A stretch of DNA of 53,696 nucleotides, from assembly GCA_903844815.1 (NCBI GenBank), contig CAIMVD010000210.1, forward strand, positions 1 through 53,696, in the 5' to 3' direction. Shown one piece after another: positions 11,455-50,178 of this stretch. The DNA comes from an uncultured Bacteroidota bacterium. Its GTDB lineage: Bacteria; Bacteroidota; Bacteroidia; Bacteroidales; VadinHA17. The position numbers were made by a program, and so were the translations under genes. The notes under the pieces were generated by a model. It saw only the letters and a program-made list of their open reading frames with translations. It had not been told where the DNA came from and ran no database searches. The first letter of the stretch is position 1; each line of letters opens with the position of its first letter.

Positions 11455-11874
11455 CTAATTGCTGATGCCCTGAAGATACCAAGGGCTCCGTTTGTAATGT
11501 TTGTTGGTGGCGATCCCGGTTCCATCGAAAATTACCCTGTAATAGCCATAACGATAATCATATTTGTAGTCATCACGGTTAAACTCAATTGGTTTAAGAG
11601 TATCAACCTGATCAACATTATCTGATATAATTATCAAAGCATTCATTATGCCTTTTGCATCGTCAATGTTATGAAAGTCAGGTTCCACAAATTTACCTGT
11701 ATGGCTCTCGGTAAGACGAACTAAATAAAGTCCGGGTTTGTTCGAAACCAATCCTTCCACAACCAGCCCTGGTTCGGCATCTTCGGGAATCAGATCATAA
11801 TCTTCAATGCAACCGGGAAGCAATAACTGAAGGAGGCTGATTATTAAAAACGATGTTATTCTCTTTTGCTTCAA
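11455..11874 (-). pseudogene. Truncated DUF4249 lipoprotein
   Basis: The 139-residue frame has a lipoprotein signal (LLQLLLPGC) followed by the opening of a DUF4249 protein: PGLVVEGLVSNKPGLYLVRL is the first strand pair and GYYRVIFDGTGI the end of the first beta domain. Complete DUF4249 proteins run to roughly 280-400 residues and are encoded beside TonB-dependent receptors. Here the frame stops after the first domain, with an unrelated tail. Together with the collapsed receptor gene directly upstream this is best read as a decayed pair. A short functional lipoprotein is possible but less likely. Confidence 0.65.
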
Positions 11875-12199
11875 CGATCACTTCATTAAGAGCAGTTATT
11901 TCATACTTAAGCCCCACATTAATTGTTGTGTCGCGTGAAAGAATTAAGTTATATGAATTTGTTTTATAACCGATAAAGGAAAATGAAATCTAATATTGAC
12001 CATCGGGAAGAGTAAGTGAATAAAACCCATAATTATTTGAGGAGGATCCTGCGTTTTTACCTTCAGCCAAAATTGTTGCACCAATCAGATGTTCACCATT
12101 TTCAATATCAATGATATTCCCAAAAATTGTATGTTTTTGTGCCTGCAACAGGAAATTTGTCAGTATAAAACAGCAGGTTAATGCAAGGGTTTTATTCAT
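11804..12199 (-). pseudogene. TonB-dependent receptor remnant (signal peptide and carboxypeptidase-like regulatory domain only)
   Basis: From ATG 12199 the frame encodes a signal peptide ending LLQAQ and a CarboxypepD_reg-like domain (HTIFGNIIDIENGEHLIGA, GFYSLTLPDGQY). An in-frame TAG at 11990-11992 follows. Reading through it, the same frame continues correctly with ISFSFIGYKTNSYNLIL and ends in EVIVEAKENN, the usual lead-in to the plug domain. It then runs into the start of the DUF4249 gene in another frame and stops at 11804. Plug and barrel (normally 600 or more residues) are absent. So the gene carries both a nonsense mutation and a large internal/3' deletion. Confidence 0.75.
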
Positions 12200-12408
12200 G
12201 GGAAGCAGTGAAGGGCATTTTGAAATTATCAAAAAAGATCAGTGATTATTTAAAACGGGAAAAGAGAGTGAAAATTACTTCAAATAATTTCTGAATTCTT
12301 GCTGATAAGCCCGGAGCCTGTGGCAAAAGAACACCGGAATATCTGACCGGCTATTTAAATATATATGTATAAGAATAGATTCAATTACACATGAGATTGT
12401 ATAAAAAT

Positions 12409-12475
12409 CCTCTGTGTTTCTCTGAGGACTCTCTGTGATCTCTGTGTAAGTTCTTAACATAGATGCACAAAGATC
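12409..12475. repeat. Dispersed repeat, CTCTGTG type (copy 2, partial)
   Basis: Tandem CTCTGTG units (12409-12446) followed by the shared palindrome TAAGTTCTTA (12447-12456) and a degenerate complementary unit (ATAGATGCACAAAGATC). The second arm is mostly lost compared with the copies at 2817 and 50077. A 61-codon frame across it is a translated repeat, not a gene. Confidence 0.75.
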
Positions 12476-12528
12476 ATTAATTTGTAATCTGTAACTGGGG
12501 AGCCAGCTTTATTTGTATGAATATATTG

Positions 12529-12570
12529 TCGGTCCGGAGGGAATCGAACCCTCGACCCCATGATTAAGAT
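12529..12570 (-). pseudogene. 3' half of a tRNA-Lys(CUU): probable attachment-site or rearrangement scar
   Basis: On the minus strand, in order: the end of an anticodon loop (CTTAA, consistent with anticodon CTT), the 3' anticodon strand TCATG, variable loop GGGTC, a perfect T-arm (GAGGG, loop TTCGATT, CCCTC), the 3' acceptor strand CGGACCG and discriminator A. The 5' half (acceptor strand, D-arm) is missing: its place is taken by the end of the GH16-fold gene, whose stop codon is 10 nt away. Only three pairs of the anticodon stem can still form. Site-specific integrases typically target such 3' tRNA halves. Confidence 0.75.
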
Positions 12571-12580
12571 TCACTTGGGG

Positions 12581-14389
12581 TTATTTTGGCTGGTAAACCC
12601 TTACCCAGTCGATCTCCATTATTGTGGAACCGTTCAATGGTTTGCTTACACCGCCGGCAAGACTTACATACATCGGTTCCTGGGGAATATCTGAGGTCTG
12701 TCTGAAAACTTCGGTGTCATTTATCTTCCAGACAAGACTATCCTTTTTCCATTCGAGGGAATAGATATAGAAATCACCCGAATAACGCGATCCAAGCGAT
12801 GTTTTAACATTGTTGCCTTTTGCAGAGAAGTAATCGAACCAAACTTTCCCGCCTGAGGTGTGGCAGATATCAAGGTGGGGAGTGATCTTATCGCCAATCA
12901 TCCAGAACGCTGACCTGGCTGAGGGATCGCCAAGTTTAATCTTTGCTGTAAATAGACCGTATTTCTGCCTGAAACTGTTACCGGTATTAATCAGACCGGA
13001 AGTATATCCGAACTCCTTGTTTGCAAATCCCTTCTCGGCCGTCCAAACCTTGCCTTTTATCTTCTGCGGTTTTGTGAGGATTTTCAGAACACTGTTCCTT
13101 ATTTCAAAGTTTTCCTTTTCAGTATAGGCCTGCAGATCAGACTCAACAGAATACCTGTCCTTAAGAAGTTTTTCGCCCCAGTAATAGTTTGTGAGCCATT
13201 TGGATGCATCGAGGCTGTTGCCGTCAAACTCCTCTCCGAAGGTTAGCACCCTGTTCTTTAAAATATCGAATTTAGAAGAATCCTTAATCTTGAAATACCA
13301 GATTATGTCGGGATTCTTCTTCAGTTTTTCATATTCTTCACCCTCCTTAAACATTGTGGTCTTTTCAAATCTCTTCTTGTCGAGGAGATAGGCTTTCCGT
13401 TCATTGAATTCCTTCGAAGCCACATATTCTTTCAGTTCCAGGTATCCGGCAAATCTTTTGGAACCATTCACGGCAAGATAGTTGGCATATTCCTTCGATC
13501 CCAGAAACCTGTAAAACTCCTTTATCTCTGAGCTTTCCTTAATGCTTTTATATTCATTCAGTTTTTTGAATTCATCGCTGTCCCTGAAGGTTATCGGCTT
13601 CATTTTCTGTTTTGCCGCGAATTCAGGGGTACTGACAAATGCTTCAAGCTCCTGAAATTTCAAAATATTTTTTGATTTTAAATTTATCGGGTTCTCAAGC
13701 GACTTAAGGTAATCTTTTACTTCCCTGGTTTTTCTAAGGGATTTGTGCTCAAGAAATTTTAAATGTTCTTCTGTTTTTTTGAACTCCGACTTATTCAGGT
13801 TCTTTTTAGCAGCAAACCCCGGGGTATTTAAAAAAACGTCAAGCTCTTCAAACTTTAGGATGGCCTTTGTTTTCACAATTTCGCCCTTTTCCCTATACTT
13901 CAGGAATCTTTTTATCTCCTTTTCCTTCCTGAGCGAATTGTATTCAGTGAATCTTTTGTATTCATCAGTATCCTTGAAAGTTATAGGCTTCATCTTCTGT
14001 TTCTCTTTGAATGCAGCCGACTGAATGAATTTTTCAAGTGATTCAAACGCCTTTATTTTATCGGATCCTTCGAGGGTCTTGAATTTCTTAAGATCACTGC
14101 CGGCTGAGGTTTTCTGATAAAGAACAATATCTTTTGCCTTTTGAAGAGAAAAGAATTCTTTTTCTTTCAGCCATTCTGTTGAATGTTTATATTGAAGCGA
14201 TTCTATCTCTTTCCTTTTGCGTATGAAATCAGCCGAATTTACGAGACTGTTCAGTTCATTGTATCTGGCAAGCTGATCAGACCCGGCGAATAAACGCAGT
14301 TTCTCAAATTCAGTTGTCAGAGTCTTTTCTGATTGCTCAATTTTTGTGGTGGAGGGGATCAATCCCAGTAAAAGCTTGAGACTTGCCAT
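12581..14389 (-). CDS. GH16-fold protein with repeated helical N-terminus and substituted catalytic site
   Basis: 602 residues. Residues 1-375 are a charged, helix-rich region of about five degenerate 60-65-residue units; units at 115-178, 179-243 and 244-300 are clearest, each with an F..L..F...FA/KEK core followed by KMKPITF-type and DEYKRF-type segments. Residues 381-602 are a GH16 (laminarinase-like) jelly roll: LTFGEEFDG at its start, KYGLFTAKIKL (476-486), AFWMIGD (494-500) and DWVRVYQ at the end. The catalytic ExDxxE motif reads HLDICH, so the nucleophile and acid/base Glu are His505 and His510 while Asp507 is kept. There is no signal peptide. It is probably not a classical hydrolase; a carbohydrate-binding, structural or metal-binding role is inferred. 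Its 3' end abuts the tRNA remnant. Confidence 0.85.
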   Translation of the reverse strand: MASLKLLLGLIPSTTKIEQSEKTLTTEFEKLRLFAGSDQLARYNELNSLVNSADFIRKRKEIESLQYKHSTEWLKEKEFFSLQKAKDIVLYQKTSAGSDLKKFKTLEGSDKIKAFESLEKFIQSAAFKEKQKMKPITFKDTDEYKRFTEYNSLRKEKEIKRFLKYREKGEIVKTKAILKFEELDVFLNTPGFAAKKNLNKSEFKKTEEHLKFLEHKSLRKTREVKDYLKSLENPINLKSKNILKFQELEAFVSTPEFAAKQKMKPITFRDSDEFKKLNEYKSIKESSEIKEFYRFLGSKEYANYLAVNGSKRFAGYLELKEYVASKEFNERKAYLLDKKRFEKTTMFKEGEEYEKLKKNPDIIWYFKIKDSSKFDILKNRVLTFGEEFDGNSLDASKWLTNYYWGEKLLKDRYSVESDLQAYTEKENFEIRNSVLKILTKPQKIKGKVWTAEKGFANKEFGYTSGLINTGNSFRQKYGLFTAKIKLGDPSARSAFWMIGDKITPHLDICHTSGGKVWFDYFSAKGNNVKTSLGSRYSGDFYIYSLEWKKDSLVWKINDTEVFRQTSDIPQEPMYVSLAGGVSKPLNGSTIMEIDWVRVYQPK

Positions 14390-14600: not shown

Positions 14601-16799
14601 ATGAAAAAACTATTCAATATTTTCCTCTACCTCTTCCTTGCAGTCTTCGGATTGCTTCTGATTATTGTAATTTCACTTAATGTATATTACAGTATTCTTG
14701 AAAACAGGCAATCAAAACAAGAGAATAATCGCAGGACTGTTTCGGCCGATAGTGTAATGCAATCAAAACCTGTCAATGCGGTTTCGGAAGAAATGATTCT
14801 TAATCTGATCCCTGTTCCAAAAAAGGTAAAGTTCACAGGAGGAAATTATTCTCTTCCCGGGAAGATCGTGTATTCAGTTGCAGATTCACTGAAGGAAGAG
14901 ACAGGTAAATATTTGAAGATTAATTTTTTAAAAGAGCCTGTTTTCTCTGAAAAAGGAGGCAATATTGTGTTTTCAAATAATGCAATGCTTCCTGTTCAGG
15001 GGTACATTCTGAATATCGGGCTTAGCAAAGTGAATATCGAATATAGTACCAGGCAAGGATTGTGGTATGCTCTAGTATCGCTTAAGATTTTGAACAGCAA
15101 CTATTCCGGCTGCTTACCTTGCGTAACGATTGAGGATAGCCCCGATCTGGAAGTCCGGGGACTTATGCTTGACATCAGCCGCGACAAGGTGCCCACAAGG
15201 GAAACACTCATTCAGGTCGCACAACTGCTTTCAGATCTTAAATATAATCACCTGGAGCTTTATCTGGAAGGATTCTCCTTTGCATACCCATCGTTTAAAG
15301 ACCTTTGGGAAGGAAAGGTGACCCCCGTCACAGGAGAAGATATCGAGGCTCTTGACACCTTCTGCAGAGAGCGTTTTATCGATCTGGTGCCAAACCAGAA
15401 TTCATTGGGCCATATGAATGCGTGGCTGGCAACTGACCGGTACAAGGACCTGGCTGAATGTCCGCAAGGATATAAAATATTTGGGCTTATCAATATGAAA
15501 GGGACGATGGATCCGAATGATCTCCGGGCTTTGCAACTTGTTACAAAAATGACCGATGATCTTTTACCTCATTTTACCTCAGAAAATTTTAACGTGAACC
15601 TCGATGAACCCTTTGAGCTTGGGAAAGGGAAAAGCAAAGAACTTGTTGAGAAAGAAGGAGTAGGAAAGGTTTACCTCGATTATGCCATGAAGATGCATGA
15701 TCTGGTTGCCAACCGGGGCAAAAAAATGATGATGTGGGCCGATATCGTCCTGAAACACCCTGAAATGATTTCATCAATTCCAAAGGATATAACACTACTC
15801 GACTGGGGCTATGAAGCTACCTATCCTTATGAGAAACATTGTAAAATATTAAAGGAATCAGGCCTGGATTACATGGTGTGCCCCGGCACAAACAGCTGGA
15901 CAACAATTACCGGACGTACTGATAATATGCTCGCCACAATTGCAAGCGCTGCAAAAAACGGAACCGGTAACGGGGCAAAGGGCCTGCTGATGACCGATTG
16001 GGGCGACATGGGCCACTGGCAATACCTTCCTGTGAGCTATGCCGGCTATACCGTTGGCGCTGCCCTGAGCTGGAACAGCAGGAGTGAGAATGAAATACCC
16101 CTTGCCGGATTTCTCAACACTTATCTCTTCCGTGATGAAAAGGGAATCATGGGCGATCTGGTACTTGACCTTGGACGGTATTGCCGTTTTGAAGAATTCC
16201 CTATGCTTAATATGACTACTACTATGATGGCTTTCCAGTTGGGTCTTCGCGATAAAGTCATGATAAATGTTATTTTTGACAAGATGATCTCCGGGGTAAG
16301 TGAACTTATGAGAGAAATTGCACCCGAAGTGGTTGATGAATTCAGTACACAATATGCAAACAGGCAAAGGTTTGACTATAAGGGGCTAAATTATTTTCTC
16401 GATTCAAAACAAGCTCTGCTTGAAAGTGTTTCATTAACTACATCCGACAGCAGTCTTGTAAAAGATGAATACCTGAATGCCATCAGGCTTATCCGGCTTG
16501 GTTCCGGATTGAAGAATTATATAGAAGACCGAAATAATCTAAGTCGCCCTGACCAAAAATCACTGCTTAAGGGATTACGTGAACTGGGATTGAAATATCT
16601 TGTGGAGAACAAACGCCTTTGGAATGCACGAAACAAACCCGGGGGATATGACAAGAGTACGGCTGTACTTTACAGCCTGATGAACCAGATCGACAAACGG
16701 ATTGAACTTCTCGAAAAACCTGCACCGGCCAGGTGGTATAACAGGCTTCTCGAAAGAACCGGAACTGCCGGGGCGGCATTATATTTCGGATCAGTATAA
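14601..16799 (+). CDS. Glycoside hydrolase family 20-like protein (beta-N-acetylhexosaminidase-like)
   Basis: 732 residues. An N-terminal membrane anchor (about 6-30) is followed by a linker, a GH20b-type alpha/beta domain (about 66-175, starting LIPVPKKVKFTGGNYSL) and a TIM barrel from VRGLMLDISRDKVPT (about 185). The expected acid pair is Asp334-Glu335 in NVNLDEPFEL, although the usual HxGGDE context is altered, so substrate may differ from chitobiose-type N-acetylglucosaminides. The last 150 residues are helical. It should act in the periplasm or at the outer face of the inner membrane on amino-sugar glycans. It is divergent from the GH16-fold gene, with about 210 bases between. Confidence 0.88.
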   Translation: MKKLFNIFLYLFLAVFGLLLIIVISLNVYYSILENRQSKQENNRRTVSADSVMQSKPVNAVSEEMILNLIPVPKKVKFTGGNYSLPGKIVYSVADSLKEETGKYLKINFLKEPVFSEKGGNIVFSNNAMLPVQGYILNIGLSKVNIEYSTRQGLWYALVSLKILNSNYSGCLPCVTIEDSPDLEVRGLMLDISRDKVPTRETLIQVAQLLSDLKYNHLELYLEGFSFAYPSFKDLWEGKVTPVTGEDIEALDTFCRERFIDLVPNQNSLGHMNAWLATDRYKDLAECPQGYKIFGLINMKGTMDPNDLRALQLVTKMTDDLLPHFTSENFNVNLDEPFELGKGKSKELVEKEGVGKVYLDYAMKMHDLVANRGKKMMMWADIVLKHPEMISSIPKDITLLDWGYEATYPYEKHCKILKESGLDYMVCPGTNSWTTITGRTDNMLATIASAAKNGTGNGAKGLLMTDWGDMGHWQYLPVSYAGYTVGAALSWNSRSENEIPLAGFLNTYLFRDEKGIMGDLVLDLGRYCRFEEFPMLNMTTTMMAFQLGLRDKVMINVIFDKMISGVSELMREIAPEVVDEFSTQYANRQRFDYKGLNYFLDSKQALLESVSLTTSDSSLVKDEYLNAIRLIRLGSGLKNYIEDRNNLSRPDQKSLLKGLRELGLKYLVENKRLWNARNKPGGYDKSTAVLYSLMNQIDKRIELLEKPAPARWYNRLLERTGTAGAALYFGSV

Positions 16800-16805
16800 T
16801 AACCT

Positions 16806-16902
16806 GTCTTTGTGCTCTTTGAGTAAACTTTTGAGCCCTTCGTTTTTAAAAAAAGCATTAAACACAAAGGACACGAAGGATTACGCTGAGGGCACTAAGG
16901 AG
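16806..16902. repeat. Dispersed hairpin repeat, CCTTCGTG type (copy 1, degenerate)
   Basis: Left arm TTTGTGCTCTTTGAG...AGCCCTTCGT (16809-16852) and right arm ACACAAAGGACACGAAGG... CACTAAGG (16862-16900) around an A-rich loop. Same unit as the repeat at 47376-47474. A long open frame that enters the LolA-like gene from 16702 reads through this repeat, which is why the true start is placed downstream at 16978. Confidence 0.8.
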
Positions 16903-16928
16903 TATATTAATTTGGCATTTAAAAATAC

Positions 16929-16959
16929 TTGCAGTTTCATTCAAACAATTATAAATTTG
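16929..16959 (+). promoter_or_regulatory. Bacteroidota-type promoter of the LolA/ABC operon
   Basis: TTG (16929-16931), a 20-nt spacer and TAAATTTG (16952-16959). This is one of the two best-spaced promoters in the window. Initiation near 16965 gives a leader of about 12 nt to ATG 16978 and supports that start. Confidence 0.5.
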
Positions 16960-16977
16960 GTTATTCATTCACTAAAA

Positions 16978-17742
16978 ATGAAGAAATCACCCATATTCCT
17001 ATTAGCCATTTTGCTTCTTCCGGGAAGTTCGGCAGTCATGTCCGCCCAGGTCCTCACTGCAACTGATATTGTGCGTAAAGCAGATGAGAAATTCAACGGT
17101 GAAAAATCAAGTATAATGGTGATGTCGATGACAATTATACGACCTGCCTGGCAGCGCACAGTTGAATTTAAAAACTGGGCCCTTGGAAGGGAATATGCAA
17201 TGACACTTATAACTGCTCCTGCAAAAGACGCAAATCAGACCTTTTTAAAAAGGGGTACCGAGATGTGGAGCTGGAACCCTGCAATAAGCAGACTGATAAA
17301 ACTTCCCCCCTCTATGATGTCGCAGGGCTGGATGGGTTCTGATTACACTAATGATGACATCCTCAAGGAATCGTCGGTTGTGAATGATTATGCACATGAA
17401 ATTATTGGGGAAGAGACTATCGGCGGACGGTTGTGCTACAAAATTAAAATGGTTGCAAAGGAAGCCGCAGCAGTTGTCTGGGGCTCACAGTTAAGGTGGA
17501 TCGACAAAAAAGAATTTCTTGTAATGAAGACTGAACTTTATGACGAGGAAGGCACACTTATAAGAACTGAAACAGGTTCAGAAATTAAAGAAATGGATGG
17601 CCGGACAATTCCATCGAGAATGGAACTCATTCCCGCTGACGAACCCGGGAATAAAACTATTGTGGACATAAAGGATATCAAATTCAATGTTCAGATATTG
17701 GAGAGTTTCTTTTCACAACAGAATATGAAAAACATCAGGTAA
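16978..17742 (+). CDS. LolA-like outer-membrane lipoprotein-sorting protein
   Basis: From ATG 16978 the product is 254 residues with a signal peptide ending VMSAQ. The mature part matches the LolA_like family (COG2834): repeated antiparallel strands, the motif FLKRGTEMWSWNPAISRLIKL and MGSDYTNDDI typical of the group. Family members are periplasmic carriers that shield an acyl or lipid cargo. The same frame is open from 16702 but the extra 92 codons cross the end of the GH20 gene and a repeat, and leave no export signal, so I reject the longer form. First gene of a five-gene operon with two permeases, an ATPase and a barrel protein; by context it carries the cargo between them. Confidence 0.88.
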   Translation: MKKSPIFLLAILLLPGSSAVMSAQVLTATDIVRKADEKFNGEKSSIMVMSMTIIRPAWQRTVEFKNWALGREYAMTLITAPAKDANQTFLKRGTEMWSWNPAISRLIKLPPSMMSQGWMGSDYTNDDILKESSVVNDYAHEIIGEETIGGRLCYKIKMVAKEAAAVVWGSQLRWIDKKEFLVMKTELYDEEGTLIRTETGSEIKEMDGRTIPSRMELIPADEPGNKTIVDIKDIKFNVQILESFFSQQNMKNIR

Positions 17743-50076: not shown

Positions 50077-50170
50077 TTACACAGAGATCCACGGAGAAGC
50101 ACAGAGGGCCACGGAGCATAACCTCTGTGTATCTCTGTGTTCCTCTGTGTCTCTCCGTGTAAGTTCTTAA
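50077..50170. repeat. Dispersed hairpin repeat, CTCTGTG type (copy 3)
   Basis: Left arm 50077-50115 (ACACAGAG, CCACGGAG, GCACAGAG, CCACGGAG) and right arm 50122-50162 (CTCTGTGT three times, CTCCGTGT) pair almost fully across a 6-nt loop. The palindrome TAAGTTCTTA (50160-50169) follows, as in copies 1 and 2. It separates two convergent genes and may also terminate both. Confidence 0.88.
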
Positions 50171-50178
50171 AATATCCG

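Follow-up and report, generated by a model that had tools for sequence, protein, structure and literature searches.

Retaining hydrolysis by enzymes of glycoside hydrolase family 16 (GH16) requires both glutamates of the catalytic dyad. Catalytically dead members have so far been met as scattered losses and as glucan-recognition proteins of animals. According to PMC6827312, one or both catalytic residues are lost in ~9% of GH16_4, 0.7% of GH16_3 and 1% of all other members, and the GH16_4 members with lost residues are not resolved into monophyletic groups. The insect glucan-recognition protein presented in PMC9459437 carries a signal peptide, a CBM39 and a GH16-like domain; the catalytic region is missing from that domain, and 7 of the 9 recognition proteins in the alignment given there lack it. 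Here we analyzed a 53,696-nucleotide stretch of DNA (the window) from an uncultured Bacteroidota bacterium of the order Bacteroidales. A gene at 12581–14389 on the minus strand of the window encodes a 602-amino-acid protein in which a GH16-like jelly-roll domain without the dyad is fused to helical repeats. We consider it probable (roughly 0.6) that this protein descends from a GH16 beta-glucanase and is now a conserved intracellular pseudoglycosidase that does not hydrolyse, carried on an alpha-helical repeat array and acting by binding or scaffolding. Dead GH16 domains are thus already known; the bacterial, apparently intracellular and repeat-tied family is a variant for which we found no description in the literature searched, and no title or abstract describing it was found among the matches listed from the open-licence literature.

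The C-terminal domain (residues 378–602; 12584–13258, minus strand) was assigned to the GH16 jelly-roll fold by Pfam PF00722 and by Foldseek and VIA-align matches to GH16 structures, with sequence similarity over residues 442–596. PF00722 was matched by all 31 close members, and PF00722 and PF03935 were the only Pfam matches of the 31 at E≤0.01. In the window protein, scanned at E≤1, both matches lay in the C-terminal domain, that to PF03935 being sub-threshold. The fold searches, in which the repeat region was not isolated as a query, gave GH16-type matches only among the matches listed. The family shares its jelly-roll with the GH16 hydrolases, but differs from them in never having the two catalytic glutamates together (129 readable members), in having its own insert and repeat region, and in showing no visible export signal. 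Unlike the GH16_4 losses as presented in PMC6827312, the sampled family sat on one branch. Judged against PMC9459437, the beta-1,3-glucan recognition proteins and GNBPs of insects also have a GH16-like domain without the catalytic glutamates, whereas the CBM39 match (by Pfam) and the visible signal are absent from the window protein. The best NCBIfam match was the endo-1,3-1,4-beta-glycanase EglC (NF052454; residues 382–600), at 58.3 bits against an equivalog cut-off of 700. The SKN1/KRE6/Sbg1 family (GH16_2, PF03935) gave a weak C-terminal match in 10 of 31 members at E≤0.01, and the window protein scored 16.9 bits against a cut-off of 30. Rv0315 (PDB 4wzf), titled a pseudo beta-1,3-glucanase, was compared by fold and title only.

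At the ExDxxE site (residues 505–510; 12860–12877, minus strand), the motif alignment placed HLDICH in the window protein. A scan of genome contigs identified 32 loci encoding relatives in metagenome-assembled genomes labelled Bacteroidales, Bacteroidia, Bacteroidetes or Bacteroidota, of which 30 were complete, one (L027) had a broken frame and one (L030) was cut by a contig end. The family-wide motif alignment held 133 rows after the removal of repeat fetches (10 loci) and three identical sequences. Setting L169 apart as outside the family left 132 rows, and 129 were readable at the motif; the other three were gapped there, L027 because of its broken frame and L030 and L171 because contig ends cut them. 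A few of the 129 rows, such as L095, were N-terminally incomplete. Glutamate at both ExDxxE positions was found in none of the 129 members; the catalytic ExDxxE motif was likewise absent from all of them, with no separate search made for ExDxE.

In the close alignment (31 rows readable at the motif, including the window), residue 505 was His and residue 509 Cys in 31/31, residue 507 was Asp in 28 and Asn in 3, and residue 510 was Arg in 29 and His in 2. Across the 129 members, 35 different triplets occurred, the commonest being HxDxxR (34), HxDxxK (23), QxDxxK (13) and ExDxxK (11); HxDxxH occurred in the window copy only (1/129). Among 62 lineage representatives, position 505 was mostly His (31), Gln (16) or Glu (9), and position 510 was Lys or Arg in 43. 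The window His510 is encoded by CAC and the corresponding Arg in L001 and L006 by CGC, suggesting that it probably arose from an ancestral Arg by a single-base change. The first-pass annotation of this DNA had described a GH16-fold protein with a five-unit helical repeat region, HxDxxH in place of ExDxxE and no export signal. This was confirmed: the minus-strand reading frame of 602 residues has five helical units of 67 residues, a GH16 jelly-roll, HLDICH at the catalytic site and no visible export signal. Its proposal that the dyad had been lost also held, as an inherited and conserved property of the family. It had named relatives of the same architecture with a normal ExDxxE as the sign of a merely decayed enzyme, and there were none among the 129.

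Genome samples at three taxonomic levels were searched. Within the order, the family profile matched 102 of 393 sampled genomes at E≤1e-30, the genome of origin included. At class level, four of the 395 genomes sampled matched at E≤1e-15, namely the genome of origin, one order genome already counted, G811 and G927; the proteins of the last two carried EIDIFE at the motif and had no repeats. At phylum level, matches at E≤0.001 came from 64 of the 395 genomes sampled. Repeats and domain together were covered in the genome of origin only; matches in the other 63 reached the jelly-roll or its edge, at E 3.3e-11 or weaker. Relatives of the same architecture are spread across one order, and the window protein is not a single decayed copy.

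A hidden Markov model of the 67-residue unit detected five units on the minus strand: residues 37–103 (14081–14281; E=2.7e-19), 109–173 (13871–14065; E=8.6e-19), 175–235 (13685–13867; E=5.8e-14), 239–304 (13478–13675; E=1.9e-20) and 310–377 (13259–13462; E=4.5e-22), the last adjoining the jelly-roll. The same model found 463 units in 124 of the 129 proteins, with 0 to 9 per protein, and the unit had no Pfam match. One unit was detectable in L140 and none in L157, both of which keep the jelly-roll. When the unit alone was searched against 119 order genomes, 28 of them matched. Judged by contig and length, all of these matches lay in open reading frames (ORFs) already found by the whole-family profile except for a 231-aa ORF on contig C112 of G482. 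The family copy of that genome, on C87, appears to be cut by the contig edge, and the C112 ORF may be its missing end. Five genomes with the domain (G439, G460, G485, G486 and G489) were not among the 28, possibly because they were not drawn or because their units are too divergent. In 247 phylum genomes, the unit-only search matched the genome of origin only. Wherever the repeat occurred, it was accompanied by the dead GH16 domain; the reverse does not hold, since members without units exist.

In a quick, unrooted tree of 65 family and 33 ExDxxE rows, the family was split from the ExDxxE proteins by a branch whose Shimodaira–Hasegawa-like approximate likelihood ratio (SH-aLRT) support was 100. 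The 33 ExDxxE rows came from 41 ORFs found by pattern, the other eight being repeat fetches; long-branch warnings were raised for L163, L164 and L165 in the family and for L035, L045, L047 and L053 among the others. Residue conservation was scored after reducing 127 rows to 62 representatives with less than 60% identity, L163 and L164 being excluded as too divergent. W449 and G454 were present in 62/62, F455 in 59/62, N557 and W554 in 61/62, and P504 and W547 in 60/62. Three of these residues form an insert, W449-x4-G454-F455 (13025–13045, minus strand), that is conserved in the lineage representatives and falls in a gap in 31–32 of the 33 ExDxxE proteins. Over both halves of the protein, the 12 closest pairs showed nonsynonymous divergence (dN) of 0.015–0.087 against synonymous divergence (dS) of 0.16–1.39, indicating that among close relatives both halves are under purifying selection. 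When the gene tree was compared with genome families, 16 label changes were counted, the minimum for 40 rows in the 17 families with more than one row, indicating mainly vertical inheritance.

We also observed a secreted-looking GH16 protein, L169 (G811, contig C25), with 259 aa from the first Met, an EIDIFE motif and no repeats. It scored 119.6 bits with the family profile, against 70.7 bits for the next ExDxxE protein, L170. At the insert site it has a stretch of similar length without the W and the GF. L169 is a candidate for an active enzyme related to the family, and the ancestor may have resembled a secreted active enzyme of this kind.

Because the fold and the clade-specific residues are kept and the dyad is absent, hydrolysis by these proteins is very unlikely on sequence grounds. 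Conservation without catalysis points to binding, and an array that varies in length while its cap persists fits a scaffold or spacer. A hydrophobic run resembling a signal peptide was not seen in 128 of 129 members by a crude test; since no export signal is visible, the protein is most likely cytoplasmic. We therefore propose a mechanism as follows. The jelly-roll caps an alpha-helical array of 67-residue units, with 0 to 9 detectable copies; without the dyad the domain would not hydrolyse, and in its remodelled form it would bind a partner protein, a glycan or some intermediate that carries a sugar. The exact length of the repeat array would be uncritical to its role as a scaffold or spacer, and the site of action would be the cytoplasm.

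Several points weigh against this proposal. The tree requires at least 18 changes at residue 505 and at least 12 changes of the Lys/Arg class at 510, so that both positions may be drifting freely and the protein may work through a surface other than the cleft. The cleft could not be inspected in the full-length AlphaFold model, in which the predicted local distance difference test (pLDDT) was below 50 over residues 376–473; block means were 28–44 over residues 381–470 and the mean was ~65 around the motif. A domain-only model had pLDDT below 50 over 160 of 231 residues, with a mean of 43.3 overall and 44 around the motif. Selection on the window copy itself was not measurable because synonymous changes were saturated with respect to its relatives (dS infinite in the three pairs listed, dN 0.15–0.24). 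The presumed cytoplasmic location is based solely on the crude export-signal test. A neighbour conserved across the whole family was not found among the matches listed when 133 loci were clustered.

The most probable of the alternatives, unlikely but with a real chance of being right, is that the jelly-roll serves only as a stable cap or for oligomerisation and that the repeat array does the work by binding cytoplasmic protein partners, glycan and catalysis being irrelevant. The unit number of 0 to 9 beside a constant cap, the drift of the catalytic positions and the similarly low dN/dS in repeats and cap are all consistent with it. However, L140 and L157 retain the jelly-roll with one unit and with none, and jelly-roll residues, including those of the clade-specific insert, are present in 60–62 of 62 lineages; the repeats were not scored likewise.

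A more speculative possibility, which we regard as doubtful, extends the binding reading to an order-wide intracellular lectin or sensor. On the cytoplasmic side of the membrane, its cleft would hold a sugar intermediate that bears a negative charge and is perhaps linked to a lipid or nucleotide, and its variable repeat array would present this intermediate to a partner in signalling or envelope assembly. The acid/base Glu is mostly replaced by Lys or Arg and the nucleophile by His or Gln, and kinase, regulator or SiaC genes lie upstream in 16 of 131 loci, an association that we treat as a lead only.

It is less probable again that the remodelled site (His/Gln/Glu, Asp/Asn, Lys/Arg) is a new active site, e.g. 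for a lyase, for a reaction on phosphate- or sulfate-linked sugars or, in copies with two histidines, for a metal. This explanation draws on the polar residues at 505 in most lineages, on Lys or Arg at 510 in 43 of 62, and on the invariance of H505 and C509 in the close clade (31/31). It conflicts with the lack of any fixed combination (35 triplets in 129 members) and with the numerous changes that the tree requires at both positions; such frequent changes argue against a fixed metal site or a new active site, and they have the look of positions released from catalysis. The His/Asp/His ligand triad was not conserved, since position 510 was Arg in 29 of 31 close rows, both histidines were present in only 3 of 129 members and HxDxxH in one. 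Of the two readings that the first-pass annotation had offered for the domain, the non-hydrolytic binder or scaffold is retained as the best one. The metal site with new chemistry was rejected as a family trait on the residue spread at 505, 507 and 510, the wider family having mostly Lys or Arg at 510 and His, Gln, Glu or another residue at 505.

A decayed, functionless enzyme that arrived horizontally at the tRNA, for which the lost dyad and the truncated tRNA-Lys and receptor-type gene stubs next door could speak, is highly improbable and is contradicted for the family by the open frame, by dN/dS well below 1 in close relatives (purifying selection, on which decay was rejected), by the presence of the family in 102/393 order genomes, by a tree that needs no more than the minimum of 16 changes to fit the genome families (17 families, 40 rows), and by neighbours common to relatives, a tRNA that is intact in L001 and a GC content within the window range.

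A conserved pseudoglycosidase family of this kind, if confirmed, would offer a clear-cut natural example of how an enzyme can become an internal protein for binding or scaffolding, tied to a repeat that was seen in no other proteins of the sampled genomes. It also bears on annotation: calls based on PF00722 would count the family as glycanases and so inflate predicted polysaccharide degradation in the 102 of 393 order genomes concerned.

The N-terminal segment (residues 1–36; 14282–14389, minus strand) consists of a hydrophobic start followed by IPSTxKIE and was delimited by invariant or near-invariant alignment columns. A P.[TSA]..[YIVLF]E-type pattern was present in 102 of 129 family members. 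An N-terminal amphipathic membrane helix was considered and is not claimed: residues 2–12 were fairly hydrophobic (mean 0.31), but their helical moment did not exceed that of shuffled sequences (mean z −0.03, n=129).

Downstream of the gene, the window carries the 3' part of a tRNA-Lys(CTT) (12526–12573, minus strand; about 46 of 74 nt), beginning 7 nt after the stop codon and 94% identical to an intact tRNA-Lys(CTT) that lies 76 nt after the stop codon in L001. Among the family loci scanned with ARAGORN, no other tRNA was reported within ~1.5 kb downstream. By this comparison, the remnant is an ancestral neighbour of the gene, and a deletion in the window lineage accounts for its present state; no sign of integration was seen. 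On the opposite strand beside the gene lie a GH20-type gene (14601–16799) and a LolA-like gene (16702–17742), as named by Pfam, followed by two permease-like genes and one ABC-ATPase-like gene that were named by eye (clusters 7 and 11). Of the 133 loci, 18 had the LolA cluster upstream, and the permease cluster was present in 20. L001 has a GH20 gene at the equivalent place and then a cluster 10 gene, which the window has further out. The GC content of the gene was 0.399, within one standard deviation of the 0.423±0.028 of 1.8-kb stretches of the window. The first-pass annotation had read the tRNA remnant as a sign of horizontal arrival; this was rejected in view of the intact tRNA in L001, the part of the upstream gene block that is common to relatives, and the gene tree that follows genome families.

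In the 16 of 131 loci mentioned above, the next gene upstream, on the same strand and no more than 150 nt away, belonged to a SiaC, response-regulator or histidine-kinase cluster. These loci belong to seven genome families (f80, f135, f137, f148, f94, f74 and f144), with no background rate for comparison. The first four share gene order and so are not independent: a kinase, a regulator, a SiaC gene in some, the family gene, and then opposite-strand genes of cluster 24 and/or the lepA cluster. Neighbour clusters were named by Pfam from one representative each. In seven loci (L079, L081, L110, L127, L146, L147 and L150), the SiaC-cluster gene ended 20–37 nt upstream and was itself preceded by response-regulator and histidine-kinase cluster genes. 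Glycosyltransferase genes of GT9 and GT4 were also found among the neighbours.

Some further features of the window were observed. When the genome of origin was searched with the intact L001 tRNA, only the window remnant and three weaker partial matches were found. Minus-strand stubs at 11458–11874 and 11993–12232 matched DUF4249 (sub-threshold) and CarboxypepD_reg-like domains, and by these matches look like the remains of a truncated outer-membrane receptor pair close to the tRNA remnant. A dispersed repeat of 40–70 bp with a CTCTGTG-like core was found at 12405–12475, 2822–2862, 2871–2923 and 50122–50174 of the window and had at least 46 matches in the genome of origin. Several of these matches formed opposite-strand pairs a few bases apart, indicating that the repeat is palindromic and resembles repetitive extragenic palindromic (REP) elements.
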